Positions 5,231 to 33,594 of a stretch of DNA of 34,723 nucleotides are shown here, one piece after another (position 1 is the first letter of the stretch; the number at the start of each line of letters is the position of its first letter). A model generated the notes under the pieces. It did not search any database. It saw only the letters and a program-made list of their open reading frames with translations, and had not been told where the DNA came from. The stretch spans positions 6,068 through 40,790 of the forward strand of contig NZ_KK082115.1 in assembly GCF_000598065.1 (NCBI RefSeq), read 5' to 3'. This DNA is from Paenibacillus darwinianus. Its GTDB lineage: Bacteria; Bacillota; Bacilli; Paenibacillales; Paenibacillaceae. The position numbers and the translations under genes are program-made.

Positions 5231-5260
5231 TTGACTGGATAGCGCCTTATCCGGTATGAT
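5231..5260 (+). promoter_or_regulatory. Sigma-A promoter of the DAHP synthase gene
   Basis: TTGACT (5231-5236), an 18-bp spacer and TATGAT (5255-5260) fit the sigma-A consensus well. The start point would fall near 5267, placing the octamer repeats at 5273-5320 inside the leader RNA. Confidence 0.7.
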
Positions 5261-5272
5261 TGCTTTACTGAT

Positions 5273-5320
5273 TAAAAGCATAAAAGCATAAAAGCATAAA
5301 AGCTAAAAAGCATATAAGCG
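5273..5320 (+). repeat. Six tandem copies of an 8-bp unit TAAAAGCA in the leader
   Basis: Three perfect copies (5273-5296) are followed by three diverging ones (TAAAAGCT, AAAAAGCA, TATAAGCG). The array lies between the predicted transcription start and the ribosome site of the DAHP synthase gene. Confidence 0.9.
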
Positions 5321-11862: not shown

Positions 11863-13485
11863 TTATCCGTCCAAGGCTTTGCGGTATTGGCCCGGCGAGC
11901 ATCCGGCTTGCTTCTTGAACACCTTACTGAAGTATTTCTCGTCCTCGTAGCCGACCATGGCTGCGATGTCGGCGATCCTCATCTGAGGATTGCTGAGCAA
12001 TATCTTCGCTTTCTCCATCCGCAGCCGCTCGACGTATTCCGAGAGCGTGCTCCCCGTTTACTGCTTGAAGCGGCGCGAAATGTACTCCCGGCTTAAATAA
12101 AACCGGCCCGCAACGTTGAACAGCGAAAGATCCTTGTCCAGGTGCTGGTCGATGTATTGCAGAATTTCGGCGATTACGCTGCGTTCGGAGCGCTTGCGGA
12201 CGGACAGCGCCTCGGACATTCGGGACAAGGTGCGGATGAGTCGCCTCTCCATCTCACCCGTGAGAAACATGCCTTCTTCATCGTAGACGACGGGCAGTTC
12301 CTCCATAGAGGCGGCCGGCGCATCCTCAGCCGGGGCGACGCCTCTGAATAACGATTGAAGCCATTTCGATTTCAGAATCCGATACTCCTGCTCCCACGCG
12401 GCGACATCGGCCGGGGTGATTTTGTCCATGGCTTGCAGCTCCGAAGTCCATCTCCTGAGCGCAGAAGCTATTTCTTCTTCGCTGCGGCTGACGACCGCCA
12501 AACGAAGCGCTTCCTCAACATCGGACAGGTGAGGTCGTACGGCGGCTGAGGAGCTCCGCGGACGGTAGGAGTGGATAAGCGTTCGCGGATCAAGCAAGTT
12601 ACGGCCCGCCAGCGCCTCCTTGGCTTGTTGCACCGCAACCCTTAAGCCTTTAGGACAAGGCTGCGGGAGGCTGAGGGCGAAATGCATCGGAGCGTTCATC
12701 GTGCGCGATAAGGCCGACTGAAGCTTTTCCAATCTTTCGGAAAGTCTATCGAATCCGTCCCAGAACAGCATGACCACCGCATCCGTCCCGCCGGCAAGCC
12801 GGAACGCGTAACCTGCTTGCCACTGCAGCCGTACGAAGTCGTTCAGCACATTGGCGACCGCGAATGCCAGCAGCTCGCTGTCGCCCCGGAACCGCTTCAG
12901 CAGTGAGACCGGCGACGGATTCAATCCGCATACCACCGCCACGCACGGCGCACCGCCCGTGGGACACCCGAATTCCTTGCCCAGCTGCTCCGCGAGCGGG
13001 ACGTTGACGGACGGCTCCGTTGCAAGCCGCGTAAATACGCTGTCCCAATAAACGGGCTTGTACTGGTTGCGCTCGATATTATGAGCCGATTGCCGCAGAA
13101 GCGCTTCCTTCCGCGCGCGTATGAGATCCGTCGATTTACGGACGGCTTCGTTCAACTGATCGGGCTCCAGCGGTTTGAGCAGGTAGTCGGAGCCGCCGTA
13201 TTTGACAGTATGCCGCATATAATCGAAATCGCTGAAGCCGCTGATCACGATCGTTTGCGTGCCCGGGTAATGGCCGGCAATCCATTCCATCAACGCCTTG
13301 CCGTCCGCGATCGGCATGTGCATATCCGTCAGCACGAGCTCGGGCCGATGCTCGGTGATGAGGCGCTTGGCCTCCTCGCCGTTATCGGCCTCGAGCAGCT
13401 GCTCGAAGCCGTGGCCGGACCAATCGACGAGCAGTTTTACAGCTTCGCGCGCATGTTGTTCATCATCCACAACGAGCACCTTCAT
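11863..13485 (-). pseudogene. YesN-type AraC response regulator interrupted by an in-frame TAA
   Basis: The reading frame has a receiver domain (D7/D8, phosphoacceptor Asp54 in LVLTDMHMP), a middle region, and an AraC-type C-terminus whose first helix-turn-helix reads LSLFNVAGRFYLSREYISRRFKQ. A TAA at 12060-12058 then stops translation at 475 residues. Beyond it the same frame stays open for 64 more codons and encodes exactly the missing part: TGSTLSEYVERLRMEKAKILL, then the second helix-turn-helix IADIAAMVGYEDEKYFSKVFKK and the end at TAA 11865-11863. Intact relatives read KQxTG here, so a single base change (for example GAA or CAA to TAA) explains it. Its ATG overlaps the kinase stop. The product of 13485-12058 would probably bind DNA poorly. 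Confidence 0.85.
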
Positions 13486-15311
13486 CCGACCATTCCCTCC
13501 TTATCGGCGACGGGGATTCGGAGCGTCACCCGCAGACCGGCTCCACCCTCCGTCGATTCGATCGGCTCAAGCTCCAGCCGGGCATCCGGACCGCAATACA
13601 ACCGCAGCCGTGTCATGACATTGGCGAGGCCGATGTGTTCATCCGGCCATTTCTCCTCAAGCTCGTTGCTCCGCAGCATGCCGCGAACCTCCTCCAGCCG
13701 CTGCGCGCTCATGCCCGCGCCGTTGTCCTCGACGGTCACCGTAACCGTCTCGCCGTCCATCCATGCCGATACGGAGAGACGGATAAGTCCGCCGGCCGGA
13801 TCGAACCCATGCTTGAATACGTTCTCGACGAGCGGCTGAACGATCATACGCGGCACCTTGCAGGAGGCCGCTCCCGGCTCGACGGCGACGTCAACGGTCA
13901 GCTTGTCGCCGAACCGCTGCTGCTGCAGATCGAGGTAAGCTTTTACATGCTCGATTTCCTGCGAAATATCGACCTTCTCATCCGAGCCGTTCATCGAATA
14001 GCGCATCATTTTCGCCAATTGGGCGATCAGCGCGTACACCTTGGGCGCCTGGTGCTGCAGGGCGAGCGTGCCGATCGATTGCAGGGCGTTATACAGGAAG
14101 TGCGGCTGGAGCTGCGCCTGCAGCGCTTTTAACTGGTGCGACGTATTGGCCAGCTGCAGCTTGTACTCCCGCAAAATAAGATGGTTGATCGTTTCCATCA
14201 TTTTACGGAATCGGGCGGCCATGATGCCGATTTCATCCGAGCCCTGCAACTTGATGTCCACCTCCAGGTCTCCGGCCTGCACATGACTGATATAGCGGAT
14301 AAGCCGCTTGATCGGATGCGTGATCCGGAACGAAACATAGATAGCCGCCGCGATCGCCGCGAGCAGAAAGGTCGACAGGATGATCGTGTTGACGGCGGTG
14401 ACCTGGCGGGTGCTTGCGGTGACGACGGATTTCGGCAGCAGCCGCACCAGCGTCCAGTTCATGTACGGGGTATTCAGCTTCTCATACACGTACCAGCCGT
14501 CGAAATCGTCGGTTTGCAGCGTCCGCGTGCCGCGCTCCTCCTTGAGCTGCAGCACTTCATCGACCCATTCCTCGCCGAGCCGCTCGCCTCTTGCCGTTCC
14601 TTCCGGCCCGTACACGACGGAGCCCGTCTCGCTCAGCAGGTACAATTGCTCCTTGTCGTCTCCAAACAACTGGCTGGAGATCGAATTGATGACATCGGTC
14701 CGGATGTCAATTGCGATCGTGCCGATTTGTTTGTTTTCCGGAATTTGCATGATTTTGCGGTGGATCGTAATGACTTCTTCCGAAGCATAGTAGGGCGTAT
14801 TAAAAATGCCATAAGGATGGCTGGTATGGGCCTGCTCGATATAAACGCTGCGGTCCGCCGGGATGCGGTCACCGCCGTAGGGCTCGGCCTGCACGGCTTT
14901 GTACAGATTGCCCTTGATGACCAGATATCCTTTGCCCGCGGCTTGGGTATGCAGATACACCTGGCGGATTTCTTTGACGGAACGGGCGATGGACTGCACG
15001 GTCCGGTAAATTTCCTGCTCGGATAAATAATCGGTTTTGCCCTGCTCGAGCACCTTGTACAGCGTATCGCCGAATTTGCTGTCATTATAGGGAAGCAGCG
15101 ATGCCTGATTCGTCACATTGAAATATTGGATCAGATTGGTCTTCCCTTGAAACATCAGGTTTGAAGCTTGCCGCAGCGCGTCTTTCTTGACGATATCCGA
15201 CGTTCGGGCGTTCGTGACAATGATGGACAGCAGCATCGGGACGGCGATCGCGAGGATCAGAAAAACGATGAGCTTCGCCCGCAGACTGCGGCGCATCCAT
15301 TCGAAACGCAT
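13482..15311 (-). CDS. YesM-type membrane histidine kinase
   Basis: 609-residue sensor kinase, partner of the AraC-type regulator whose gene overlaps it by 4 bases (ATGA). TM1 is at about 12-33. The extracellular Cache-like region spans about 34-290, TM2 about 295-317, followed by a HAMP linker. The His_kinase domain contains LQPHFLYNALQSIG with phosphoacceptor His404, and the C-terminal ATPase has VENVFKHGF and EDNGAGMS. ATG 15311 is chosen over an in-frame TTG at 15317 because GGGGAGG is properly spaced for it. Divergent from the sugar importer genes, which it probably controls. The substrate sensed is unknown. Confidence 0.92.
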   Translation of the reverse strand: MRFEWMRRSLRAKLIVFLILAIAVPMLLSIIVTNARTSDIVKKDALRQASNLMFQGKTNLIQYFNVTNQASLLPYNDSKFGDTLYKVLEQGKTDYLSEQEIYRTVQSIARSVKEIRQVYLHTQAAGKGYLVIKGNLYKAVQAEPYGGDRIPADRSVYIEQAHTSHPYGIFNTPYYASEEVITIHRKIMQIPENKQIGTIAIDIRTDVINSISSQLFGDDKEQLYLLSETGSVVYGPEGTARGERLGEEWVDEVLQLKEERGTRTLQTDDFDGWYVYEKLNTPYMNWTLVRLLPKSVVTASTRQVTAVNTIILSTFLLAAIAAAIYVSFRITHPIKRLIRYISHVQAGDLEVDIKLQGSDEIGIMAARFRKMMETINHLILREYKLQLANTSHQLKALQAQLQPHFLYNALQSIGTLALQHQAPKVYALIAQLAKMMRYSMNGSDEKVDISQEIEHVKAYLDLQQQRFGDKLTVDVAVEPGAASCKVPRMIVQPLVENVFKHGFDPAGGLIRLSVSAWMDGETVTVTVEDNGAGMSAQRLEEVRGMLRSNELEEKWPDEHIGLANVMTRLRLYCGPDARLELEPIESTEGGAGLRVTLRIPVADKEGMVG

Positions 15312-15355
15312 GAGCAAAGCCTCCCCATTATCCAGTCATCGGACCTTGTACAGGT

Positions 15356-23101: not shown

Positions 23102-23129
23102 TTGCAAGTCGAATTTTGTCGTGTATAAT
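23102..23129 (+). promoter_or_regulatory. Sigma-A promoter of the riboswitch-folE operon
   Basis: TTGCAA (23102-23107), a 16-bp spacer and a perfect TATAAT (23124-23129). The start near 23136 gives a leader of about 230 nt containing the riboswitch and terminator. Confidence 0.75.
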
Positions 23130-23199
23130 TTATCATACATAGAACATTCAGGATATTGTAGTAGGAATAAAGACCAGACAACTAACCGCCTAGCACTGT

Positions 23200-23297
23200 T
23201 TTTCTTAACGAAACGGCAAATCCACCGAAAGATGGAGGCGCAAAGCCACGGGCCTAAGGCGAAATGCTATGGCAGCCGGGTTGCCGAATTAGGAACG
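23200..23297 (+). ncRNA. Cyclic di-GMP-I (GEMM-I) riboswitch aptamer
   Basis: Class I c-di-GMP aptamer. Closing stem P1 is TTCTTAA (23202-23208) with TTAGGAA (23289-23295). The conserved core CGGCAAA is at 23214-23220 and GCAAAGCC at 23240-23247. A GAAA tetraloop (23227-23230) is closed by C-G, and its 11-nt receptor CCTAAG (23253-23258)/TATGG (23268-23272) is present, followed by GCAGCCGGGTTGCC. By alignment to the Vibrio Vc2 aptamer, the ligand-contacting G20 is G23215, A47 is A23242 and C92 is C23284. All are the c-di-GMP-type bases; the cGAMP-sensing variant has A at position 20. It lies between a promoter and an intrinsic terminator upstream of folE. Confidence 0.95.
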
Positions 23298-23310
23298 GAT
23301 CTGCAAAGAC

Positions 23311-23345
23311 AAATCCAGTCCTTTATTCGGGCTGGATTTTTTTTA
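23311..23345 (+). terminator. Intrinsic terminator serving as riboswitch expression platform
   Basis: AAATCCAGTCC (23311-23321) pairs with GGGCTGGATTT (23329-23339; one G-U), with a 7-nt loop and a run of eight T (23337-23344). The folE ribosome site follows directly. GGAACGGAT (23292-23300), part of the P1 3' strand, can alternatively pair with ATCCAGTCC (23313-23321), which would make ligand binding favour termination. Confidence 0.9.
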
Positions 23346-23365
23346 TCTTACTGGGAGGGACATCG

Positions 23366-23950
23366 ATGAAACCGCTAGTTAAAACGAGATTGGCCGGCAG
23401 CGATCCGCTCGAAATGAGCATTCGAACCATTCTGGAGGAGATCGGAGAAAATCCGAACCGGGAAGGCCTTCTGGATACGCCCAAACGCGTCGCCAAAATG
23501 TACCGCGAGGTTTTCGCGAATGTCGGAGTCGATCCCGCAACGGCATTGACGACAACCTTTGAAGAGGAGTACGACGGGATCATAACCGTCAAAGATATCG
23601 CTTATTACACGTTCTGCGAGCACCACCTGATCCCGTTCTACGGACAAGCTCATATCGGCTATATGCCGGAGGGACGAATCGTCGGATTAAGCAAATTCGC
23701 GAGGCTGGTAGAGCTCGTCTCCGGGCGGCCGCAGGTCCAGGAGAGAATGACCCAGCAAATTGCAGCTGCGGTTGTCGACGTGCTGAAACCGAAGGGCGTC
23801 ATCGTTACGGTTGAAGGAACGCATCTGTGCATGTGCGCGCGCGGCGTGAAAAAACCGGGCACCTCGACGGTAACGACGGTGAAGAAAGGCATATTCGCCG
23901 ACAACGTGGCCTTGTGCGAGGAATTTGACCGTTCGATTTCAAGGAAATAG
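23366..23950 (+). CDS. folE: GTP cyclohydrolase I (FolE)
   Basis: Converts GTP to 7,8-dihydroneopterin triphosphate, the entry to folate and biopterin. The 194 residues have REGLLDTPKRVAKMY, the zinc site Cys84/His87 (FCEHH) and Cys155 (THLCMCARG), GLSKFARLVEL, and RPQVQERMT. The open frame extends upstream into the riboswitch, but GGGAGG at 23353-23358 sets ATG 23366 and the family N-terminus agrees. It is first in a three-gene operon with the tandem PTPS and an SDR, so biopterin-type rather than folate synthesis is the likely purpose. Transcription must pass the c-di-GMP riboswitch terminator. A separate housekeeping copy for folate is expected elsewhere. Confidence 0.95.
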   Translation: MKPLVKTRLAGSDPLEMSIRTILEEIGENPNREGLLDTPKRVAKMYREVFANVGVDPATALTTTFEEEYDGIITVKDIAYYTFCEHHLIPFYGQAHIGYMPEGRIVGLSKFARLVELVSGRPQVQERMTQQIAAAVVDVLKPKGVIVTVEGTHLCMCARGVKKPGTSTVTTVKKGIFADNVALCEEFDRSISRK

Positions 23951-23988
23951 ACATGTCCGTTCCAATCGGAGGCGGGGGGAGGTCCCAT

Positions 23989-24810
23989 ATGCTTTTCATA
24001 TCAAGAAGAATCGATTTTTCCGCGACCCACGTCTATCGGGTTTCGTCCTGGAGCGAAGCGGAAAACAAGCGGGTATTCGGGCTTTGCAGCAACCCGAACG
24101 GCCATGGCCATGATTACCGGCTCGAGGTGGTGGTCAAAGGCGCTTTGAACGAAAAATCCGGCATTGTGGTGAATACGACCGATATTAAGCATATCGTCGG
24201 TTCGTTTGTGGAAGACGAGCTCGACGGCAAATTTCTGGACAGGCAGCATCCTTACTTCGTGACCCATATGCCGACGACGGAAAATCTGGCCGGCTATATT
24301 TGGCAGTCCCTTGAAAACCGCTTTGAAAATTGCGAGCTTCACCGGATTCGACTGTATGAAAACCATTATTTGAGCGCGGAAAAGGAGAAGGCTGCTTTGA
24401 CACGGCTTACGCGAAAATACCACTTTTGTGCGGCTCACCGGTTGCACAGCGACCAGTTGTCCGCGGAGGAAAATTTGGAGTTGTTCGGCAAATGCAACAA
24501 CCCGCACGGACACGGGCACAATTACTACCTTGATGTGACGGTCCATGGGGAGCCCGATCCGGTTACCGGCATGATCGTCAATCTGGCCGAGCTCGATGAA
24601 ATCGTGCAGAAGCAGGTGCTTGACAAGGTCGATCATAAGCATCTGAACCTGGACACTGCGGAATTCAAGGACCTGAATCCGACGTCGGAGGCGGTGGCGA
24701 TGGTTATCTACAATATGCTTCATCCCCATCTTCCGGAGCTGCATAAAATCGGGCTATGGGAAACCGAAAAAAATTATTTTGAGTACCGCGGTGCCGGAGA
24801 GCTGTCATGA
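23989..24810 (+). CDS. Tandem-fused 6-pyruvoyl-tetrahydropterin synthase (PTPS-PTPS)
   Basis: 273 residues made of two PTPS/QueD domains. The C-terminal copy (about 138-268) is strikingly like animal PTPS: zinc ligands His150, His175 and His177, catalytic Cys169 in FGKCNNPHGHGHNY, the Asp215-His216 pair in DHKHLN, and Glu in LWETEKN. The N-terminal copy (about 1-130) keeps His14, Cys33 (GLCSNPNGHGHDY), His39 and His41, but has Asp79-Gly80 (LDGKFLD) where the catalytic Asp-His is expected. The reaction is dihydroneopterin triphosphate to 6-pyruvoyl-tetrahydropterin. GGGGGAGG selects ATG 23989 over ATG 23953. Its TGA overlaps the next ATG. A queuosine role (QueD) is less likely given the neighbours and the NNPxGHGHNY signature. 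Confidence 0.9.
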   Translation: MLFISRRIDFSATHVYRVSSWSEAENKRVFGLCSNPNGHGHDYRLEVVVKGALNEKSGIVVNTTDIKHIVGSFVEDELDGKFLDRQHPYFVTHMPTTENLAGYIWQSLENRFENCELHRIRLYENHYLSAEKEKAALTRLTRKYHFCAAHRLHSDQLSAEENLELFGKCNNPHGHGHNYYLDVTVHGEPDPVTGMIVNLAELDEIVQKQVLDKVDHKHLNLDTAEFKDLNPTSEAVAMVIYNMLHPHLPELHKIGLWETEKNYFEYRGAGELS

Positions 24811-25526
24811 TCGATTTCGGGCAGCTGAAAGGGAAAACGATCGCCATCACCGGGGCGTCCCGCGGCATCGGCAAAGAAACGGCGCGATTGTTGGCAGGTC
24901 TGGGAGCAAATCTGGCGCTCGGGGCAAGAAATACGGACGAATTGGATGAGGCCGCGTCACAGCTGGATACGGAGGTTCTAACGCTGCCGCTTGACGTGAC
25001 CGATGAGGAATCGGTGCGGAGCTTTGCGGAGGAAGCTGTCTCAAAATTCAAAAAAATAGACGGACTGATCAACAGCGCCGGCACAGGCGTATTCGAGTCC
25101 CTGATCACGATGGCGGCCGACGATTTCGACCGTATGATCGCCGTTAACCTTACAGGCACGTTCTTGAGCTGTAAATGGTTCGGTCAGCACATGGTACGCA
25201 ACGGGGCCGGCAAAATGATCAATGTCGTTTCGATCGCCGGTACGACCGCGCTGCCGGGCTGCGGCGGTTACTCCGCCTCGAAATTCGGCGTGCTGGGGCT
25301 GACAAGGGTGCTGCAGGCCGAGTTGCGGGACAAGGGCATACAGGTGACGGCGGTTTTGCCGGGAGCGGCGGCCACTTCATTCTGGAACGGGATCGACCCG
25401 AAACCCGACATGTCGAAAATGATTCCCGTCGAATCGCTGGCCAAACATCTGGTTTATCTTCTGTGCCAGCCTGCAGGCAGCGTAGTGGATGAAATCACGA
25501 TAATGCCTCCGCTAGGTATCTTGTAA
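24807..25526 (+). CDS. Short-chain dehydrogenase/reductase, probable sepiapterin-reductase role
   Basis: 239-residue classical SDR. Cofactor loop TGASRGIGKE near residue 16, with an Arg in GARN that favours NADPH. DVTDEE, NSAGTG, catalytic Ser142 (VVSIAG), Tyr155 and Lys159 (YSASK) are also present, followed by PGAAAT. The ATG overlaps the PTPS stop (ATGA), so the two are translationally coupled. Reduction of 6-pyruvoyl-tetrahydropterin to tetrahydrobiopterin (sepiapterin reductase step) is inferred from the operon; SDR sequence alone does not fix the substrate, and a pteridine or monapterin reductase is an alternative. Confidence 0.85.
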   Translation: MIDFGQLKGKTIAITGASRGIGKETARLLAGLGANLALGARNTDELDEAASQLDTEVLTLPLDVTDEESVRSFAEEAVSKFKKIDGLINSAGTGVFESLITMAADDFDRMIAVNLTGTFLSCKWFGQHMVRNGAGKMINVVSIAGTTALPGCGGYSASKFGVLGLTRVLQAELRDKGIQVTAVLPGAAATSFWNGIDPKPDMSKMIPVESLAKHLVYLLCQPAGSVVDEITIMPPLGIL

Positions 25527-25650
25527 GGGGAGGAAGCTGAATCGCAACCGAACAGATGACATTACGAGGGTGACTCTGAAAGCAGGGGCTGCGAAAATGC
25601 CAAGATCACCGTTTTAACGTCCCTGTCATCGCCTGAGGAGGTTGGTTAGC

Positions 25651-27708
25651 TTGAAAGCACAAGGAAAAAGCATCATATCGAAAGGGAAAAACGTCAAGGA
25701 AGCGGTCATGATCGCTTTGGATTTATTAAATGAAAAGCTTGACGCCGTAGATGTGGTGGTGATGGAAAACGGGTCGAAGGGGATTTTGGGGCTCGGCTCA
25801 AAGCTGGCGGTTGTGCGGGTGACGGTGATAGGGAGAACGGCTGAACCTGTGGCCGACCTTGAGGCGGCCGTCGAATCGATGGAATTGCCGGAGCTTGCCG
25901 ATGCTCCCATGGGGAGCGAGAATAAGCGGACCTTCGAAGACGAGAGCCTGTCCGGCAAAGCATGGATTCGAAACGGACAAATCAATTGCAAAGAGGCGCC
26001 CGACAAATATCCGATGGTCAAGCCGTGCGACAAGGTGCAATTGTATAAAAATAACGAGCTTGTGAAGAACGCGGTGCTCATTCGCGAAACCGATCATCTG
26101 ACGGTGGACATTCAGGATGAGATCCGGGAGCCCGTCTGGGAACTGGAAATACGGCCGGGGAAAATGTCAGCCGTGTTGAAAATCGTACCGGGCTTCCGCA
26201 TCCGGCGCAAAATAAAAGACAAGGCGCCGGACACCTGCGTTCAGATCGAGGTAGAGGAAAAAAAGATTCCGCTCGTTATCGAAACCGAGCCGCTGCTTGA
26301 AAAGCTGCGCGAACTGGGCATTGTCCACGGTGTCGACTATACCGAGATTGCCCGCGCTTGCACAACTGACGAGGCGGGAACGTTCGTCATCGCCGTAGGA
26401 ACGCCTCCGTCCCCGGGCAAAAACGGGTACTTCCTGCCGCTGCAGGAGCTTGAAGTGAAAAAGGGGTTGAAGGAGCGATCCGACGGCTCGATCGATTACC
26501 GGGAGCTTCAGCAGTTTCCATCCGTTGAGCCGGGACAGGTATTGGGAACGGTCCGGCCGCCGGTGCCGGGCGTGCCCGGGTCGACGGTGACCGGCGAAGC
26601 CGTTTATCCGCCGGAAGCGCTGCCCCTTGCACTTCTAGCCGGCAAAGGTATCATTGCGGTAGAGGATGCGGGGGGCACCCGAATAATCGCGACCGAAGCG
26701 GGACACCCGGACGTTAAACTGAAAGGGAGATCGGCCCAAATATCGATTGTGACGATGCTTAGGATCGGCAAGGACGTCGACCTTCAGCTCGGCAATGTGC
26801 ATTACGCGGGCGACGTGGAAATTGTCGGTTCGGTGCAGGACGGGATGCTGGTCGAAGCGCAAGGGAACATCATGGTTTACGGGAATATCAATATGGCCAA
26901 GGTGAGCGCGGGCAGCTCTGTCATCGTGAGGCACAATATTGTGACAAGCGAGGTTACCGCCGGCAAAAGCAGCTTTTTGAAAGCGGAAATTCACCAGCTG
27001 CTGAGCCGGTTTGTGCAGCAAATGAGACTGATGGAGGCGGCGATTCAGCAGCTTTCCACCGTCCCGGCGTTCAAGGCATCGTCTTTCACGCGGACAGGGC
27101 TCGGGCCCCTGATTAAAATTTTATGCGACGGCAAGTTCAAGTCGTTTCCGGCTTTGACCCAGTCATTGATTCATAAAATTGAGAGCGGCCAGGATGTGCT
27201 GGAGAAGGAGTGGAAGGATTTTGCCCAACGATTGCACAAAGGCTTTATCATGAGCCATGCTTCGGAATTCAAATCGGTGGAAGATATCGTACAGACGATT
27301 CAGATGGCCGAACAGTTCCTGGCGGATACAAGCGATGAGGAGCAGGGCGCCGGTTGCTTCATCAAAGCGGGGGGCGTTCATAACAGCCGGTTGTACTCCA
27401 GCGGCGATATCACGATTTCCGCGCAAGGCATCTATCAATCGATCATTCGGTCCGGCGGACACGTCGAGGTGGAGGGATCTGTGCGCGGAGGAGAAATATA
27501 CGCTTCAAAAAGCGTGAAAATAGGAGAAACCGGGACCAAGGGAGGAGCACCCACCAAGATCGTTGTCCCCAAAGGGGAAACCATTAAAATCAACGATGCC
27601 ATGGAAGAAACCGTTGTTCAGGTAGGCGCCCGGATATACAAATTCGACGTTCGATCTTCCAATGTGTACGCAAGACTGGATTCAGATGGGGAACTGCTAC
27701 TTTACTGA
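25651..27708 (+). CDS. Jag_N-DUF342 (FapA-like) protein
   Basis: 685-residue cytoplasmic protein. The N-terminal Jag_N domain (about 1-55) has the signature NVKEAVMIALDLL and GSKGILGLGSK; a FapA/DUF342 core and a beta-helical repeat region (about 330-430) follow, then a helical insert (about 445-560, LLSRFVQQMRLMEAAI) and more beta-repeats to the end. FapA-type proteins affect flagellar assembly or cell-envelope polymer localisation; their biochemistry is poorly known. GAGGAGG places the start at TTG 25651. No flagellar genes are adjacent; STAS and PilZ-like genes follow. The gap of 124 bp to the SDR gene has no evident terminator, so read-through from the riboswitch operon is possible. Confidence 0.85.
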   Translation: MKAQGKSIISKGKNVKEAVMIALDLLNEKLDAVDVVVMENGSKGILGLGSKLAVVRVTVIGRTAEPVADLEAAVESMELPELADAPMGSENKRTFEDESLSGKAWIRNGQINCKEAPDKYPMVKPCDKVQLYKNNELVKNAVLIRETDHLTVDIQDEIREPVWELEIRPGKMSAVLKIVPGFRIRRKIKDKAPDTCVQIEVEEKKIPLVIETEPLLEKLRELGIVHGVDYTEIARACTTDEAGTFVIAVGTPPSPGKNGYFLPLQELEVKKGLKERSDGSIDYRELQQFPSVEPGQVLGTVRPPVPGVPGSTVTGEAVYPPEALPLALLAGKGIIAVEDAGGTRIIATEAGHPDVKLKGRSAQISIVTMLRIGKDVDLQLGNVHYAGDVEIVGSVQDGMLVEAQGNIMVYGNINMAKVSAGSSVIVRHNIVTSEVTAGKSSFLKAEIHQLLSRFVQQMRLMEAAIQQLSTVPAFKASSFTRTGLGPLIKILCDGKFKSFPALTQSLIHKIESGQDVLEKEWKDFAQRLHKGFIMSHASEFKSVEDIVQTIQMAEQFLADTSDEEQGAGCFIKAGGVHNSRLYSSGDITISAQGIYQSIIRSGGHVEVEGSVRGGEIYASKSVKIGETGTKGGAPTKIVVPKGETIKINDAMEETVVQVGARIYKFDVRSSNVYARLDSDGELLLY

Positions 27709-27722
27709 GAGGAATGAACCGG

Positions 27723-28055
27723 ATGTTCCGTTATAAAATCGTTGATGAGGAAACAAGGACCGTCGTCTTCCTGCAAGGGGATATGGACATCGATGTCACG
27801 GAGACGATCGAGGAGGAAGTCATGCCGGCGTTGACGTACCGCAAAGAAGTTCACCTCGATTTCGCAGAGGTTCAGTTTGTAGACTCCTCCGGCATCGGAC
27901 TGTTGATTTCGCTCGTTCAGCATTTGACGGAGCAGGGAATAAAGACACGGATTATTCATCTGAATGCGGAAGTGAAGCAGGTGTTTGAGCTGCTGCAGCT
28001 GCCGGATATTTTGGGGCATGACGTGATGAGCGATTTTGAGGGCGGCGCATCATAA
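27723..28055 (+). CDS. STAS-domain protein, anti-sigma-factor-antagonist-like
   Basis: 110 residues forming a single STAS domain. The phosphorylation loop VDSSGIGLL has Asp54-Ser55-Ser56; Ser56 aligns with the regulated serine of SpoIIAA/RsbV. The start ATG 27723 fits the TGAGAGGA ribosome site better than ATG 27714. It begins 14 bp after the DUF342 gene. No partner kinase (RsbW-like) or phosphatase lies in the window, so it may act on a remote partner-switching module or directly with its neighbours. Confidence 0.88.
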   Translation: MFRYKIVDEETRTVVFLQGDMDIDVTETIEEEVMPALTYRKEVHLDFAEVQFVDSSGIGLLISLVQHLTEQGIKTRIIHLNAEVKQVFELLQLPDILGHDVMSDFEGGAS

Positions 28056-28075
28056 AAGGAACAGGGGGAGCCGGC

Positions 28076-28366
28076 ATGGAGCTGGAGAACCGCAAATATC
28101 AAGGCACCCGAACGGAGCCGTTGGAGATCGTGATCGAAGAGATGGAAGGCAGCGAGGACAAATACGAAAATGTCCGCGTCGTGATTGAAGAGGTCAGCTT
28201 TGAGGGGGTGAGATTTACGGCCGACGTTGAATTTCGGAAGGACGAGGAGATTCATTTTCGTCTTCCCAGCATTAACGTCGAATCCCTCGTTGCCGGCCGA
28301 ATCGTCTGGAAAAAGGAATTGGAAACCAAGCAGTATCAATACGGCCTTCATATCCTGAGCGAGTAA
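28076..28366 (+). CDS. Small PilZ-like protein with degenerate c-di-GMP motif
   Basis: 96 residues matching a lone PilZ barrel: EEVSFEGVRF aligns with the D/N-x-S-x-x-G motif but with Glu in place of Asp/Asn, and the N-terminal RKYQGTR lacks a clean RxxxR. Later strands (INVESLVAGRIVWKKE, YQYGLHIL) fit the family. c-di-GMP binding is therefore possible but not assured. AGGGGGAG precedes the ATG; 20 bp after the STAS gene. Its position downstream of a c-di-GMP-riboswitch operon strengthens the PilZ assignment. Confidence 0.7.
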   Translation: MELENRKYQGTRTEPLEIVIEEMEGSEDKYENVRVVIEEVSFEGVRFTADVEFRKDEEIHFRLPSINVESLVAGRIVWKKELETKQYQYGLHILSE

Positions 28367-28534: not shown

Positions 28535-30334
28535 TTATACAAGCGGCAGTTCGATCCGAATTCGGGTTCCGCGTTCCGGCTCCGTGCGGATCTGAAACCG
28601 GACCCGCTCGCCGTAGGCAAGCAGGAAACGGCGGTACACGTTGAGAATACCCGTATGATTGCGGAAAAACGGATCGACTTGCTCGGTCCTGGAATCGATC
28701 AGCCGGTTCAACTTGTCCATCACATCGTCGGGCATGGACATCCCGGTGTCGTGGACCTCGATCAGCAGCATATCCTCCTGGCGGTGGGCCATGACGGTTA
28801 AGGTGAACGCACCGGGATTCATATGGGGGCTCCAGCCATATTTGATCGCGTTCTCCACAAACGGCTGGATGCTGAGCTTCATGATCGGGATGTCGAGCGC
28901 GGCCGGATCGACCTCAAATACCGCATCCACATCCGTACCGTTCCGGTAATAATGGATCGTCAGGAAATTACGGATGTAGGCCAGCTCTTCCTTCAGCGGG
29001 GCCCGCCCGCCGTCGTTTCTTACACTGTACCGCATCATGCGCGATACCGATTGCACCATCTCCCCGACCGCTTCCCCGTTATTTTTGCCGGCATAGGATT
29101 CGATCGTCTCCAGTGTATTGAACAGAAAATGCGGGTTGATCTGGGCCTGAAGCTGGAGCAGCTCGCGTTCTTTCTCCTTCAGCTTCGATTGGACAACTTC
29201 CTGCTCCATCCGCTTCAGCTCGTTCAGCATTTGATTATAGCCGTGAATCAGAAATCCGATCTCGTCGTTGTTGGACGGTTCGCTGATCGGATGGTATGAG
29301 CCTCGTCCTAGACGTGCCATTCCCTGTTTGAGCTTGGAAAGCGGGCGGAGGACGATGTTCATCATGGGATAGGCTACGAACAGGGATATGGAGAAGCTTG
29401 CGACCGCAATAAGCAGCGTCAGGCTGGTGGATTGCGCAGCGCCCTTCGTCATGCTGCTCAGCGGGGCGATCCATACGAGCTTCCAATCGCCGTAAGGCAA
29501 ATCGGAATAGGTGACCTCGTACCGGACCGCGTCCGAAGTGAACATGAATTCACGATTATTGCGCGGGCCCAAATGAAGCGCATTCCTGAAGTCCCGCAGC
29601 AGGAGGTCCTCCATGTTCACATTGGACACTGCGGCGTTATTGGAATCATGATATAGTAGAAGATGCCCCTCCTGCTCATACTCCGGTCCGCTGAGCAGGC
29701 TTTTGATTTTATCCTCGCTGATTTCAATCGAGAACCAGGCGCCGATGCTGCCGGTCCGCAGATTGTAGACGGGACGCATGAAAGAGAACACCGTTTCCTT
29801 CGTATCCAGCGCATAATTAAGGGGATGGGGGGCGCTCAGCGTCGTCTCGTTCAGACGATCCATATTGCCGTACAAGCGGTCGCTGGCGAGCGGATAATTG
29901 AAATCGAATCTTTTCTGGTATGAATCGAAATACGTTTTGCCAAGTTTGTCCATGTAGAGAACGCCCAGAATTTCATTGCGCTCCTGCAGCGACTGCCGCT
30001 GGATCGGCTGATAATCGATCGTATAACCCGCTTGCGCAACCAGATCGTCGGGCGGCGTCTCCATAAATCGTTGAAACGCGGAATTGGTGAACAGCGAATC
30101 GAAAGAATCGCTGACATCCTGAAGATAGGCGGTAAGGTCCTTGGACACCGATTGCACATATTGAGAGGAGATTGAAGACGAGTATTCGGTGCCCGAACGG
30201 AACATGAAATACTGTGAGCTGTAGCTCACAATTGCGGTAGGGACAATTGAAATCGCTACCAGAATAACAAATAATTTATGCTTGAGCGACAGATACACCA
30301 GTATCCGTTTCAGGGAAAGCAGGAGCGACTTCAT
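28535..30334 (-). CDS. YesM-type membrane histidine kinase (second system)
   Basis: 599-residue kinase. TM1 is at about 20-42, a long extracellular region (about 43-290) contains DYQPIQRQSLQERNEI, TM2 lies about 295-318 and a HAMP linker follows. The His_kinase domain reads INPHFLFNTLETIES with phosphoacceptor His402, and the ATPase has VENAIKYGW and EVHDTGMS. GAGGAGGTCACC precedes the ATG. It is divergent from an AraC-type response regulator 88 bp away, which is its probable partner; most YesM/YesN pairs are instead in one operon. Probably tunes the sugar ABC cassette at 32116 onward. Confidence 0.92.
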   Translation of the reverse strand: MKSLLLSLKRILVYLSLKHKLFVILVAISIVPTAIVSYSSQYFMFRSGTEYSSSISSQYVQSVSKDLTAYLQDVSDSFDSLFTNSAFQRFMETPPDDLVAQAGYTIDYQPIQRQSLQERNEILGVLYMDKLGKTYFDSYQKRFDFNYPLASDRLYGNMDRLNETTLSAPHPLNYALDTKETVFSFMRPVYNLRTGSIGAWFSIEISEDKIKSLLSGPEYEQEGHLLLYHDSNNAAVSNVNMEDLLLRDFRNALHLGPRNNREFMFTSDAVRYEVTYSDLPYGDWKLVWIAPLSSMTKGAAQSTSLTLLIAVASFSISLFVAYPMMNIVLRPLSKLKQGMARLGRGSYHPISEPSNNDEIGFLIHGYNQMLNELKRMEQEVVQSKLKEKERELLQLQAQINPHFLFNTLETIESYAGKNNGEAVGEMVQSVSRMMRYSVRNDGGRAPLKEELAYIRNFLTIHYYRNGTDVDAVFEVDPAALDIPIMKLSIQPFVENAIKYGWSPHMNPGAFTLTVMAHRQEDMLLIEVHDTGMSMPDDVMDKLNRLIDSRTEQVDPFFRNHTGILNVYRRFLLAYGERVRFQIRTEPERGTRIRIELPLV

Positions 30335-30366
30335 GCCGGGGTGACCTCCTCATATAGGTGCGCTGC

Positions 30367-30410
30367 TTGAAGCAATGTATTCAACATTCCGTGACGGAAT
30401 CCTTGCAAGG
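30367..30410. repeat. Cluster of three palindromes in the divergent kinase-regulator region
   Basis: TTGAA-N8-TTCAA (30367-30384), ATTCCG-TGA-CGGAAT (30386-30400) and CCTTGCAAGG (30401-30410) follow one another within 44 bp between the two start codons. They may be operators; no clear sigma-A promoter was resolved among them. Confidence 0.6.
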
Positions 30411-30422
30411 AGCTGACGAACG

Positions 30423-31838
30423 ATGAAAATCTGCGTCGCAGACGATGAAAAGGAAGTAAGGGAAAGCATCATTCATAAGCTGAGGGCCTTGTACCCGCAA
30501 GATGAAATCTACGATGTGGAATTCGGGCGCAAGGCGCTGCGGCAAATCGCCGCGGTCAATCCCGATCTCGTTTTTCTCGATATCCGGATGCCGGAAATGG
30601 ACGGGCTCGATATTTTGCAGTCGATCAAGCAACGCAGGCCTTCCATACAGGCGGCGATGCTGTCTGGTTATGACGATTTCGTGTATGCGAGAAAGTCGCT
30701 CCATCTGGGCGCGATCGATTATTTGCTGAAGCCGGCGGACCGGGAGGAGCTGCGAGCGGTCGTCGAACGGGTCAAATCGGAAACGGACAAGGCGTTCGGC
30801 AAGGAAATCGACATTCATCTGGGAAGGCTTTCCGCCAAGTATGTATTCATCGATACGCTGCGCTATTTTAACACAAGCCTGTGGTTCGATGAAAGAAGGG
30901 AAAAAACGGTCCTGTTCGGACACGCCGGGAGCTTGCACCGGCAGCTTGAGGAGACCCCGAAGGATACCGTGTTTACTTTTTGCGTCAATCACGACTATGA
31001 AGGAGCGGTAGTCGTCCGCCAGCCGGTGCACCGGGGGCCTTTTTTTCAGCTTGTGGAACATTTCGTGCCGGCGGTGCTGGAGGGCATCGACAGATGGGAG
31101 AGCGAGCGCTTTTTCGGCAGACCGCCGGAAGGGAGAAGCCATGCAAATACCCGGAGGACAGCCGGTCGGCGGGCCGCCCAGCTGCGCCGTCAGATTATGG
31201 CCACCGCACGGACGGGCAGCCATCAGCGTCTGGAGCAATCCTTGAATGAATGGCTGGAATGCTTGTATGGCCTCGATTTGTCGATGCTAAGAAAGGAATG
31301 CGTCAACCTGATGGCGTTGCTGGATGAAGGGCTGGCCGGCGGCGGCGAAGTCATTGTGCTCGAGGAGGAGAAAATCCATTACTGGACGCAATGGGTGAGC
31401 AAGCACCGGACCTGGGGCGAATTAAGCGGCAAAATCCGCAAGTTTGTGCTCGACGGCATCAGGGCTTTGACGCAGCCGGAAAGCCAGTCGCATACAGGCT
31501 GGTTTCAGCAGGCGCTGCATATGCTCGACACCTCGGCCGATCCGAATCTGAGCCTCGAGCTGGTGGCTGAGGCGGTAGGCGTTCATTCCGTCACATTAAG
31601 CCGTATTTTCAAGCAGCAGACGGGCATGAACTTTGTCCGGTATTTGGTGCGGAACCGGCTGCGCCTCGCGCAAAAGCTGCTGCTGAACTCGGAGAAAAAT
31701 ATTAACGATATCGCGGAAGAGGTCGGATACGTCGATTACCGATATTTCCGCACGCTCTTCAAAAAGGAGTTCGGCATGACGCCGTCCGAATACCGGAGAA
31801 GCAACGGGATCGCAGGCGGCGTAGACGAGGTGGATTGA
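30423..31838 (+). CDS. YesN-type response regulator with AraC DNA-binding domain
   Basis: 471 residues. A receiver domain (1-120) has D7/D8, phosphoacceptor Asp53 (FLDIRMPEMDG) and the conserved LLKPAD. A variable middle region (about 130-360) is followed by a complete AraC-type domain (about 370-463). Both helix-turn-helix units are present: LSLELVAEAVGVHSVTLSRIF, and INDIAEEVGYVDYRYFRTLFKKEFGMTPSEYR. AAGGAG precedes ATG 30423. Unlike the first regulator in this window it is intact. The sugar-binding protein gene downstream, with direct repeats in its promoter region, is the likely target. Confidence 0.92.
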   Translation: MKICVADDEKEVRESIIHKLRALYPQDEIYDVEFGRKALRQIAAVNPDLVFLDIRMPEMDGLDILQSIKQRRPSIQAAMLSGYDDFVYARKSLHLGAIDYLLKPADREELRAVVERVKSETDKAFGKEIDIHLGRLSAKYVFIDTLRYFNTSLWFDERREKTVLFGHAGSLHRQLEETPKDTVFTFCVNHDYEGAVVVRQPVHRGPFFQLVEHFVPAVLEGIDRWESERFFGRPPEGRSHANTRRTAGRRAAQLRRQIMATARTGSHQRLEQSLNEWLECLYGLDLSMLRKECVNLMALLDEGLAGGGEVIVLEEEKIHYWTQWVSKHRTWGELSGKIRKFVLDGIRALTQPESQSHTGWFQQALHMLDTSADPNLSLELVAEAVGVHSVTLSRIFKQQTGMNFVRYLVRNRLRLAQKLLLNSEKNINDIAEEVGYVDYRYFRTLFKKEFGMTPSEYRRSNGIAGGVDEVD

Positions 31839-31882
31839 TGCGGGTGCTTTCAACCGGCGCGTCGGAAAATAGCAACGGAAAC

Positions 31883-31913
31883 AACCGTTAACGCAAAGTT
31901 GACGGTTTTTTTA
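31883..31913 (+). terminator. Rho-independent terminator after the AraC-type regulator
   Basis: AACCGTTAAC (31883-31892) pairs with GTTGACGGTT (31898-31907; one G-U), loop GCAAA, followed by a T-run. It isolates the regulator gene from the sugar cassette. Confidence 0.88.
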
Positions 31914-31989
31914 TATTTAGTTGATTATTGGAAAAAATAATCGATCCAGACAGCGGTTACCGTGCCAATCTAAATCATTTGGCCGTTAA

Positions 31990-32056
31990 CGTTAAAAAAT
32001 TCTCTACCTCGCGTTAAATTATTCCGCTGTGAACCGTATGAGCTAACTTTTATAAT
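31990..32056 (+). promoter_or_regulatory. Promoter of the second sugar cassette with AraC-type direct repeats
   Basis: A perfect TATAAT (32051-32056) has no good -35 hexamer. Just upstream, CGTTAAAAAATTCT (31990-32003) and CGTTAAATTATTCC (32012-32025) match at 11 of 14 positions, spaced 22 bp apart. This is the arrangement expected for an AraC-family activator touching the -35 position. The rest of the 277-bp gap holds only the upstream terminator. Confidence 0.55.
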
Positions 32057-32115
32057 CATTCTATAGGCGCTTACAAAGACGACGCCGATCATAAAACATT
32101 TTGGGGGATGAAGCA

Positions 32116-33594
32116 ATGCGCGTGCTAAAAGGGTGTATGATCCTCGTTCTGGTTTTGATCATCGGCATGACGACCGCATGCTCGACCAATAACGGGAAAA
32201 CGAATTCCCAAGGCTCCGCGAATACCGCCGATACCGGCGGCGCCGGAAACGCCAGTGGCGCTGCGGAGAAGCCGAAGGAGCTGAGAATCCTGTATGCGAC
32301 GGCCGAGGCCGGCTCCGAAGCGATTCTGGATGCGGTGAAGAAATACGAGACTGAGTTCGGCATCAAGGTGTCCGTGGACACGTTCCCTTATAACAATCTG
32401 CAGGAGAAAGTATTTTCCGAGCTGGCGCAAAAAAGCGACTACTACGACCTGATGGCGATCGATACGCCTTGGGTGCCGCAGCTGATCCAGCATCTGGAGC
32501 CGCTTTCATCCTACATGAGCGCCACGAAAAACCCGGATCTGCTGGCGCTGGACGACTACATCGCCAAAGTGTTCCTTGACACGTCGGTGTTCAAGCTGGA
32601 CGCGCCGAACGAGCAGCCGCCGGCAATGAACACCATCTCGCTCGATGCGATTACAGGCGCAGGCTTCGAGGCGGTCGGGCTTCCGATCCAGTCGAATGCG
32701 CTGACGGTCAGCTACCGTAAGGATTTGTTCGAGGACCCAGCCAACCAGGCCGCGTTCAAGGAGCAATTCGGCCGTGAGCTTGCGGTGCCGAATACGCTGG
32801 ATGAATACCTCGACGTCGCCAAGTTTTTTACCCGCGATACGGACAACGACGGCAAGATCGATATGTACGGGACGACGCTGATGGCGAAAAAGCATGAAGC
32901 GGGCTTCGTCGATTTCAAGTCGTTCCTGAGCGATTTCGGCGGTTCCATTTTCGACGCGAACATGAAGCCGATGTTCAATAACGAGCAAGGCGTTAAAGCT
33001 CTGGAGCTGTACGGCAGCTGGATTAACGAGTACAAGGTGACGCCTCCGGGAACGACGACCTATACGTGGGATGAAGTCGCAACCGTTTTTGGCTCCGGTC
33101 AAGTCGCAATGGGCATGAACTACCACGATATGCAGCTTGATCCGAAGGTGAACGGCAAGACCGGATACTTCCTGTTCCCCGGCCGCGAGGACGGCAGCGG
33201 CAATGTCCGCGGCCCGCATTTCGGTTCGTGGGAGCTGTCAGTCAGCAAATACTCGAACAACAAACAGGCTGCATACGATCTGGCGGAGTGGCTGACCAGC
33301 CCTGCGACGCAGGAAGGCTACATTCCGTTCAAGCAGCACGTCACTCGGCTTTCAAGCTACAAGGCGGCCCAAGCCATTGAAGACGAAACGGTCAGAGAAT
33401 TTTATCAAGTGCTGGGCGAGTCGCTGAAGGTCGGCGTCGGCCGTCCGAGAATTACGAATTACGGTCAAGTATCCGAAGCCGTGCAGGTCGGGATGAACGA
33501 TTATCTCACCGGCCGCAAAGGGGCCAAGGAAGCGCTGGACAGCGCCGCCAAGCAGGTCGAGGCCATTATGGAGCAGGCGGGGTACTACAAGTAA
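32116..33594 (+). CDS. Extracellular sugar-binding lipoprotein (second ABC cassette)
   Basis: 492-residue SBP_bac_1-type binding protein with lipoprotein signal (hydrophobic stretch 8-17, lipobox TTAC, Cys22) and a low-complexity S/N/T/G linker to about residue 55. The binding fold follows (ELRILYATAEAGSEAILDAV; YDLMAIDTPWVPQLIQHLEPL; FGSGQVAMGMNYHD). It contains RDTDNDGKIDMYGT, a calcium-loop-like DxDxDG motif. GGGGGATGA precedes ATG 32116; an in-frame TTG at 32101 lacks a ribosome site. A permease gene follows 39 bp downstream. Confidence 0.92.
   Translation: MRVLKGCMILVLVLIIGMTTACSTNNGKTNSQGSANTADTGGAGNASGAAEKPKELRILYATAEAGSEAILDAVKKYETEFGIKVSVDTFPYNNLQEKVFSELAQKSDYYDLMAIDTPWVPQLIQHLEPLSSYMSATKNPDLLALDDYIAKVFLDTSVFKLDAPNEQPPAMNTISLDAITGAGFEAVGLPIQSNALTVSYRKDLFEDPANQAAFKEQFGRELAVPNTLDEYLDVAKFFTRDTDNDGKIDMYGTTLMAKKHEAGFVDFKSFLSDFGGSIFDANMKPMFNNEQGVKALELYGSWINEYKVTPPGTTTYTWDEVATVFGSGQVAMGMNYHDMQLDPKVNGKTGYFLFPGREDGSGNVRGPHFGSWELSVSKYSNNKQAAYDLAEWLTSPATQEGYIPFKQHVTRLSSYKAAQAIEDETVREFYQVLGESLKVGVGRPRITNYGQVSEAVQVGMNDYLTGRKGAKEALDSAAKQVEAIMEQAGYYK

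Follow-up and report, generated by a model that had tools for sequence, protein, structure and literature searches.

Control of c-di-GMP by pterins has been described in Proteobacteria only, where PruA-PruR-DcpA of Agrobacterium forms a pterin/c-di-GMP pathway (PMC13259868). The SiaABCD partner switch of Pseudomonas comprises a sensor, a PP2C phosphatase, a kinase-like HATPase, a STAS-type protein and a link to a diguanylate cyclase (PMC7647112). BH4 is made in bacteria by single- or dual-domain PTPS, as related from Kong et al. (2006) in PMC3546692.

The window analysed here, a stretch of 34,723 nucleotides from Paenibacillus darwinianus, carries a riboswitch followed by a pterin operon. The riboswitch is like the c-di-GMP-I (GEMM-I) family RF01051 in aptamer sequence and structure and in the transcription terminator behind the aptamer, and differs from known members in having pterin biosynthesis genes downstream. 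A literature search found no paper with pterin biosynthesis as a c-di-GMP-I riboswitch target, in agreement with the initial annotation, which had known of no c-di-GMP-gated pterin operon.

As with PruA-PruR-DcpA, an SDR-made reduced pterin would be combined with a membrane GGDEF-EAL enzyme that has an extracytoplasmic domain, the latter in sister clusters. The differences are the host group (Bacillales, not Proteobacteria), a PTPS-II route instead of monapterin, a dCache-type sensor, an SDR without TGX3RXG, and a riboswitch that would give control in the reverse direction. Relatives of the locus share with SiaABCD the sensor, PP2C, HATPase, STAS-type protein and diguanylate cyclase link; here, however, sensor and PP2C are separate proteins, the operon holds pterin genes, and control is by a riboswitch. 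Bacterial BH4 synthesis is similar in having a two-domain PTPS together with FolE and an SDR; here, domain 1 has lost its catalytic His, c-di-GMP control would be added, and no glycosyltransferase recurs in the operon. The locus would be best read as a c-di-GMP-gated pterin signalling operon – PruA/DcpA- and SiaABCD-like in logic, a member of neither.

Riboswitch and operon in the window

The aptamer is a member of the c-di-GMP-I riboswitch family. The RF01051 match spans the full model (positions 1–87), with a score far above the gathering threshold of 35 bits; it is the only Rfam match within the window, and the same aptamer was recovered by a whole-genome riboswitch search. Both G20 and C92 are present, and a G rather than an A at position 20 is, as we take it from established knowledge of the key contacts, the residue expected for c-di-GMP over cGAMP. 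The aptamer would bind c-di-GMP. Other c-di-GMP-I riboswitch targets in the same genome include GGDEF, CheX and MCP genes. The initial annotation had placed a promoter, this aptamer and a terminator here; the covariance search bears out the aptamer, and the promoter and terminator were found in the described places (Table 1). The promoter is supported by position only, since chance matches of its quality are expected in the region.

Table 1. Features of the leader and operon (positions of the window)
Feature	Position	Strand	Evidence
Sigma-A-type promoter	23102..23129	+	TTGCAA-16 nt-TATAAT; consensus scan, 10/12 positions
c-di-GMP-I riboswitch aptamer (GEMM-I)	23205..23288	+	RF01051, 82.9 bits, E 4.4e-15
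Predicted P1a helix closing the aptamer	23204..23293	+	23204-23210 with 23285-23286 and 23289-23293, bulge 23287-23288; duplex prediction
Predicted antiterminator hairpin	23284..23330	+	Outer helix CCGAAU 23284-23289 with AUUCGG 23325-23330; -17.2 kcal/mol
Intrinsic terminator	23311..23339	+	11-bp stem then T8; -15.0 kcal/mol; terminator scan
folE paralogue, GTP cyclohydrolase I, 194 aa	23366..23950	+	NCBIfam 242 bits (cut-off 162); Pfam PF01227, E 7e-69
Two-domain PTPS-II (PTPS2)	23953..24810	+	Pfam PF01242 twice; rat PTPS 1b66, E 9e-40
SDR, candidate sepiapterin-reductase-like	24807..25526	+	Pfam adh_short, E 6e-52
FapA-like protein with Jag_N domain	25642..27708	+	PF20250, PF03961, PF14804; start may be TTG 25651
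STAS protein, anti-anti-sigma type	27714..28055	+	PF01740, E 4e-16; DSSG phosphosite motif by alignment
PilZ-domain protein	28076..28366	+	PF07238, E 6e-7; c-di-GMP motif partly kept (ExSxxG) by alignment

The folE gene of the initial annotation was found with NCBIfam and Pfam models, and its SDR gene with a Pfam model. Its tandem PTPS is indeed two PTPS domains, but these are fused in one protein, and the coupled start it described is therefore only the ATGA overlap of the PTPS2 stop and the SDR start. The true start of PTPS2 is more likely ATG 23989, which is preceded by GGGGGGAGG. The operon probably runs on through the FapA, STAS and PilZ genes to 28366; the annotation had the genes up to 25526 and missed these three. 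FapA was counted as an operon member by comparison with two other loci (L013 and L097), in which the gene order is conserved.

PTPS chemistry and the pterin product

The signature of PTPS-II is CxxxxxHGH (PMC5041015). It occurs in both domains of PTPS2 in the window, and in domain 2 of all 36 homologues. Domain 2 has its catalytic Cys, Asp and His, the pterin-anchoring Glu and the zinc histidines complete in the window and in 35 of the 36, while domain 1 lacks the catalytic His89 in the window and has Gly in its place in 34 of 36. The sequence matches rat PTPS (E 9e-40) far better than QueD (about 2e-9). The CNNPHGHGH of domain 2 fits either the PTPS-II or the QueD (PTPS-I) motif, and the homologues retain only CxxxxxHGH. 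The residues and the rat-like sequence support PTPS2 as a BH4-type PTPS-II, not a QueD.

PTPS2 also scores above the cut-off of the NCBIfam QueD model TIGR03367, as would be expected if folE and PTPS were ordinary housekeeping genes for folate or queuosine. This is highly improbable: against it stand the PTPS-II motif and rat-like sequence, and the same genome keeps a second FolE (G000:C90) and a separate QueD (G000:C63) with the motif CRRVHGH (CxxxHGH), which makes supply of folate or queuosine by the operon unlikely. The folate/queuosine reading was rejected on these two genes.

The SDR is a classical one, with TGASRGIG matching TGX3GXG rather than TGX3RXG; a PruA/FolM-type pteridine reductase was rejected on this motif. 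When its profile was compared with solved structures, Chlorobium sepiapterin reductase 2bd0 came sixth over the full length (E 4e-44), close to other SDRs, a result compatible with sepiapterin reductase but not diagnostic of it. Of the complete BH4 pathway of the initial annotation, FolE, the PTPS-II residues and an SDR are present, the SDR as a candidate sepiapterin reductase; completion of the pathway to BH4 is putative. The end product of the operon would be BH4-like.

Direction of the switch

The initial annotation was silent on the direction of control, and the folding analysis adds a likely one. In the window, the predicted antiterminator is mutually exclusive with both P1a and the terminator, and is predicted to beat the P1a state until the 3' arm of the terminator has been transcribed. 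In 19 of 21 leaders, the aptamer 3' strand can pair either in P1 or downstream, each helix excluding the other. By folding energies, its downstream pairing is preferred before the terminator is complete in 19/21, and the terminator is kept in the P1 state in nearly all of the 21. RNA folding favours an OFF switch, with pterin made at low c-di-GMP. An energy-difference test against shuffled sequences, used in place of a paired-base count that had little power, gave a combined Fisher p of 3e-6 for the antiterminator, a value that overstates the support because the leaders are related to one another.

An ON switch, with read-through promoted by c-di-GMP, is unlikely. The window antiterminator alone had p 0.06, which is not significant, and two leaders (L022 and L075) go the opposite way, with no OFF energetics; both points would suit an ON switch. 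It sits poorly with the exclusive helices of the other 19 leaders and with the terminator retained in the P1 state. The L012 terminator looks degraded.

Conservation and linked signalling genes

The riboswitch precedes the gene set in 16 of 22 named loci, from ten named genera, so that the riboswitch-folE arrangement recurs across genomes. In the family/class sample it lies before the operon in 8 of 11 folE-type genomes; in two of these (G478 and G550) it stands before a whole rearranged STAS-PP2C-FapA-STAS-folE operon, and in one folE-type genome of the sample a riboswitch relic remains before folE. Chance placement was rejected, given the conservation over ten named genera and the riboswitch ahead of the rearranged operon. 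Some folE-type loci have no riboswitch (L017, L019, L021, L026, L033, G087 and G247). The PTPS2 gene is rare in Bacilli (9 of 399 genomes), consistent with the initial description of the pathway as uncommon in Firmicutes, and PLSDB holds no plasmid-borne copies.

The operons of relatives hold genes for a dCache-HAMP sensor, a SiaA-like PP2C (its best NCBIfam match is SiaA), STAS and HATPase. The sensor gene adjoins PTPS2 in 12 of 14 genomes and is absent only from two incomplete MAGs; in a sister cluster, a homologous sensor is fused to GGDEF-EAL. Comparison of a sensor model with structures (VIA-align) gave Cache-type sensors at Z 10–13, which indicates fold, not ligand. A pterin ligand for this dCache domain is a guess, made from the linkage of the genes. 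In the PruR-DcpA system a SUOX-like PruR gene lies immediately next to dcpA; at the PTPS2 loci, the GGDEF-EAL sensor has no additional recurring neighbour family, and no PruR-type gene recurs. All parts of a SiaABCD-type system, with sensor and PP2C split, are near PTPS2 in some relatives, and the window has STAS only. The window genome is a MAG, 75% complete, and its operon has no gene for a dCache sensor, PP2C or HATPase and no acyl gene beside it; a signalling role for the window is therefore carried over from relatives and from FapA-STAS-PilZ. The coupling of pterin to the c-di-GMP lifestyle proposed at the outset is partly supported, by the riboswitch on a BH4-type operon; the signalling genes and the dCache/GGDEF-EAL sister cluster had been missed. 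A defence-system reading was rejected: PADLOC had no match for the HATPase, hydrolase or ligase.

BH4-type pterins are cofactors of hydroxylases and NO synthase, and the pterin could be an ordinary cofactor of NO synthase or of an unrecognised hydroxylase or monooxygenase, its synthesis tied to lifestyle by happenstance and the signalling genes merely co-regulated. NO synthase occurs in 8 of 14 PTPS2 genomes, in line with such a use. Its distribution is patchy, however, with four complete genomes lacking it (G074, G231, G247 and G534), and aromatic amino-acid hydroxylase (PF00351) is absent from all 14; both specific cofactor roles were rejected on these counts. Signalling genes recur beside PTPS2, oxygenase genes never, and the cofactor explanation as a whole seems rather unlikely. 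It is also doubtful that the operon makes a secondary metabolite, a released signal or pigment formed when an alpha/beta hydrolase, an AMP-ligase and acyl carrier proteins, found in relatives, load or acylate the pterin. Such genes do lie downstream of the SDR and HATPase genes in many relatives, but the operons of the window, L013 and L096 have none of them, and we know of no modification chemistry for this set.

The locus is, on balance, probably a c-di-GMP-responsive, dedicated reduced-pterin operon within a signalling module, with an OFF switch, a FolE-PTPS2-SDR route and mutual control. What has been computed is the family of the riboswitch, the genes present, their conservation, the PTPS-II residues and the duplicate FolE; ligand binding, OFF direction, product and signalling role are proposed. 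Transcription would start near 23136. At low c-di-GMP, the aptamer 3' end would pair downstream in the antiterminator and RNA polymerase would read on; with c-di-GMP bound, P1a would close, freeing the terminator and stopping transcription, so that low c-di-GMP would be the state in which the pterin enzymes are made. FolE of the operon itself would form dihydroneopterin triphosphate, PTPS2 would convert it to 6-pyruvoyl-tetrahydropterin (in domain 2, with domain 1 degenerate), and the SDR would reduce this to a BH4-like tetrahydropterin. The most likely use of the pterin would be in signalling: the dCache sensor, the partner-switching proteins and the c-di-GMP enzymes whose genes accompany PTPS2 in relatives would take it as a ligand or a sensory cofactor, and pterin and c-di-GMP would control each other.

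A wider Bacillales system can be sketched only tentatively: c-di-GMP may repress a BH4-like pterin operon by riboswitch, and the pterin may be read by the dCache membrane sensor, acting through the SiaA-like partner switch, or through the fused GGDEF-EAL of sister clusters, back on c-di-GMP and motility. The riboswitch and pterin genes, travelling with sensor, phosphatase and c-di-GMP-enzyme genes in many Bacillus-like bacteria, point to unstudied Gram-positive pterin signalling. To our knowledge, biopterin-type pterins made by Firmicutes have no assigned role; a conserved c-di-GMP riboswitch on a PTPS-II operon with sensor and partner switch would give them one. Riboswitch targets would also gain a new class, pterin operons, and the idea that reduced pterins act as signals in bacteria generally would become testable. 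The operon is carried by the named isolates Paenibacillus validus, Paenibacillus cremeus, Brevibacillus gelatini, Cohnella pontilimi and Oceanobacillus massiliensis.

The operon in the window

An Rfam search of the whole window returned a single match, a c-di-GMP-I aptamer, and a riboswitch of this type very probably controls the genes that follow. The initial annotation had placed a promoter, aptamer, terminator, folE, tandem PTPS and SDR here, with coupled starts for the last two genes. These features were recovered, except that PTPS is one two-domain protein (PTPS2), so that the only coupled start is the PTPS2/SDR overlap. For PTPS2, a start at 23989, after GGGGGGAGG, fits homologues better than 23953. 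The operon had been ended at 25526; it probably runs on to 28366, because Paenibacillus cremeus (locus L013) has exactly the same layout (folE-PTPS2-SDR-FapA-STAS-PilZ), as does locus L097 once its middle genes are left out. A terminator scan called none in the SDR–FapA gap.

Features of the operon and its leader
Feature	Position	Strand	Remarks
Promoter-like TTGCAA-16-TATAAT	23102-23129		consensus match only
c-di-GMP-I aptamer	23205-23288	+	Rfam, 82.9 bits (gathering score 35), full length
Terminator, 11 bp + T8	23311-23339		consensus match only
FolE	23366-23950
PTPS2	23953-24810		single protein, two PTPS domains
Classical SDR	24807-25526		ATGA overlap with PTPS2
FapA with Jag_N domain, STAS, PilZ	25642-28366		~115 nt beyond SDR

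The host genome is a 3.0 Mb MAG (111 contigs, 75% complete) in which searches found seven c-di-GMP-I riboswitches and eight GGDEF matches. Of the other six riboswitches (L002-L007), four lie upstream of a GGDEF protein, CheX, an MCP and a dCache protein whose reading frame runs on to a GGDEF match; the remaining two precede a glycosyltransferase region and a gene weakly resembling YvyF. A two-component set typical of uptake systems adjoins the operon at 28535-33594: a divergent Cache-type histidine kinase, an AraC-type response regulator and a solute-binding protein. The window encodes a second histidine kinase/response regulator pair at 12058-15317.

Conservation of the riboswitch and gene set

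PTPS relatives were sought in 84,980 species genomes by a protein-guided scan, which gave 36 loci, nearly all encoding two-domain proteins. In 22 (L008-L027, L033, L040) folE-PTPS2-SDR or a remnant is found, L027 and L033 lacking folE. Using a covariance model built from the host genome's seven aptamers only, with Rfam on a subset, a riboswitch was found directly upstream in 16 of the 22, loci that are related by descent and not independent events: Cohnella, Brevibacillus, four Paenibacillus, two Oceanobacillus, Pontibacillus, Ornithinibacillus, Salinibacillus, two Gracilibacillus, Aquibacillus, Terrihalobacillus and one MAG. L014 begins near a contig end, where an upstream riboswitch is hard to judge. 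On the PTPS2 tree the riboswitch requires three changes, e.g. one gain and two losses.

An independent sample had PTPS2 in 9 of its 399 class genomes and in 6 of its 199 family genomes (host included in both), in line with the rarity first proposed for a BH4-type pathway. The riboswitch is immediately 5’ of folE in 6 of the 11 genomes with folE-PTPS2-SDR, and in two others (G478, G550) it precedes a rearranged operon beginning STAS-PP2C-FapA-STAS. Nothing points to selection more strongly than this position at the new 5’ end. G550 has a weak riboswitch relic (22.5 bits) before folE. A weak, probably decayed c-di-GMP-I aptamer sits between STAS and folE at L094:7834-7912; that genome's rearranged operon is fronted by a strong riboswitch. 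Oceanobacillus salinisoli (L018) has three c-di-GMP-I riboswitches in 5 kb (564-648, 1640-1723, 5235-5318), adjoining MotA/MotB genes and the pterin operon. PTPS2 is broken in MAG G015 (L098), and in G534 (L099) it is interrupted along with the HATPase gene, which suggests operon decay in some lineages, or assembly errors.

Predicted direction of the switch

P1a, the helix closing the aptamer, is predicted to pair 23204-23210 with 23285-23293, and an antiterminator 23284-23289 with 23325-23330 plus inner helices; the same 3’ strand is common to both. With RNA polymerase at 23332, the predicted antiterminator state has -41.1 kcal/mol, versus -30.3 with P1a forced. In the full leader the antiterminator and P1a-plus-terminator states are predicted to differ by at most 1 kcal/mol, a modelled balance that ligand binding can tip. 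Under softer constraints 19 of 21 leaders preferred the antiterminator (the window's difference was then -4.1), and the P1 state almost always retained the terminator. A test with shuffled expression platforms gave a combined p of 3e-6 (0.06 for the window alone). In G478 and G550, GGGUUGCU is predicted to pair with AGCA(A/G)(U/C)CC, which belongs to the 5’ arm of the terminator – the same exclusion in different letters. From the mutually exclusive folds, the 19 leaders and this exclusion we predict an OFF switch; the operon would likely be silent at high c-di-GMP. The YvyF-like gene's leader has OFF-type pairing as well (p 0.01).

The pterin and its possible role

Supply of folate or queuosine was rejected as the operon's function, since a second FolE (G000:C90; best operon-type match 57% identical) and a separate QueD carrying CRRVHGH are present in the genome. 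These genes mark the operon as a dedicated branch, which, judging from sequence, very likely makes a PTPS-II-type pterin. Two FolE occur in all 11 folE-PTPS2-SDR genomes, one in all three with the other cluster type.

Domain 2 of PTPS2 matched rat PTPS (1b66) at E 9e-40 over its length, versus only about 1e-9 for QueD structures. In all 36 homologues domain 2 has the PTPS-II signature CxxxxxHGH (PMC5041015), the zinc ligands, Cys42, Asp88 and Glu133; His89 is retained there in 35. In domain 1 the zinc ligands are mostly kept and Gly replaces His89 in 34 of 36; domain 2 is therefore the likely catalyst, domain 1 a degenerate partner. In a Poribacteria MAG (L041:6001-8376) the degeneracy is reversed: the two-domain PTPS encoded beside folE and an SDR has Tyr for His89 in domain 2. 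BH4 synthesis by dual-domain PTPS in bacteria was reported by Kong et al. 2006, as cited in PMC3546692. The SDR has the motif TGX3GXG; the TGX3RXG motif of PruA/FolM was not found in it. Chlorobium sepiapterin reductase ranks sixth among solved SDRs in its profile, which is compatible with such a function but not proof. Of the complete BH4 pathway proposed initially, FolE and a PTPS-II-type PTPS thus stand, with the SDR compatible, and the chances that BH4 itself is the product are about even.

Aromatic amino-acid hydroxylases were found in none of 14 PTPS2 genomes, and NO synthase is missing from six of these, four of them complete. The recurrent neighbours of PTPS2 are signalling genes. In about 20 relatives the order, in variants, is folE-PTPS2-SDR-HATPase-(alpha/beta hydrolase-ACP-AMP-ligase)-sensor-STAS-PP2C-FapA-STAS-PilZ. 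The sensor profile matches beside PTPS2 in 12 of 14 genomes, the two MAGs being the only exceptions; no sensor gene was found beside the operon in the incomplete host genome. The sensor is modelled (pLDDT 82) as a membrane protein whose extracytoplasmic domain is of Cache type, and the model matches, among others, Chlamydia RsbU, McpH and WalK sensors. Among NCBIfam families the PP2C comes closest to SiaA (E 6.5e-14, below cut-off). Twelve loci (L028-L032, L034-L039, L042), grouped to one side of a branch of the PTPS2 tree (94/92), instead have PTPS2 linked to a homologous sensor fused with GGDEF and EAL, signature motifs present. Neighbours further include an EAL protein (L008), dCache-GGDEF (L013), PAS-GGDEF (L100), REC-PAS-GGDEF-EAL-LuxR (L097) and MotAB (L018). 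This gene linkage, the basis of a putative pterin–sensor link, tips the balance slightly towards a signalling role for the pterin.

The latest review of pterin signalling (June 2026, PMC13259868) deals with PruA-PruR-DcpA in Proteobacteria; neither Firmicutes nor riboswitches come up in it. Full-text searches, with few subscription journals covered, found no paper in which GTP cyclohydrolase I or PTPS is tied to a c-di-GMP riboswitch, in agreement with the initial statement that no described c-di-GMP-gated pterin operon was known. Each part of the locus is of a known kind; what would be new is how they are combined, as well as signalling by pterins in Gram-positives.

An alpha/beta hydrolase (with a carrier domain in some loci), free ACP and AMP-ligase lie inside the pterin/signalling operon at L008:8444-11198 and similar places. 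c-di-GMP-I riboswitches also occur near SDR-PTPS2-GGDEF-EAL clusters, though not preceding PTPS2, at L039:9579-9665 (Paenibacillus cremeus) and L034:12243-12332 (-) (Ammoniphilus).
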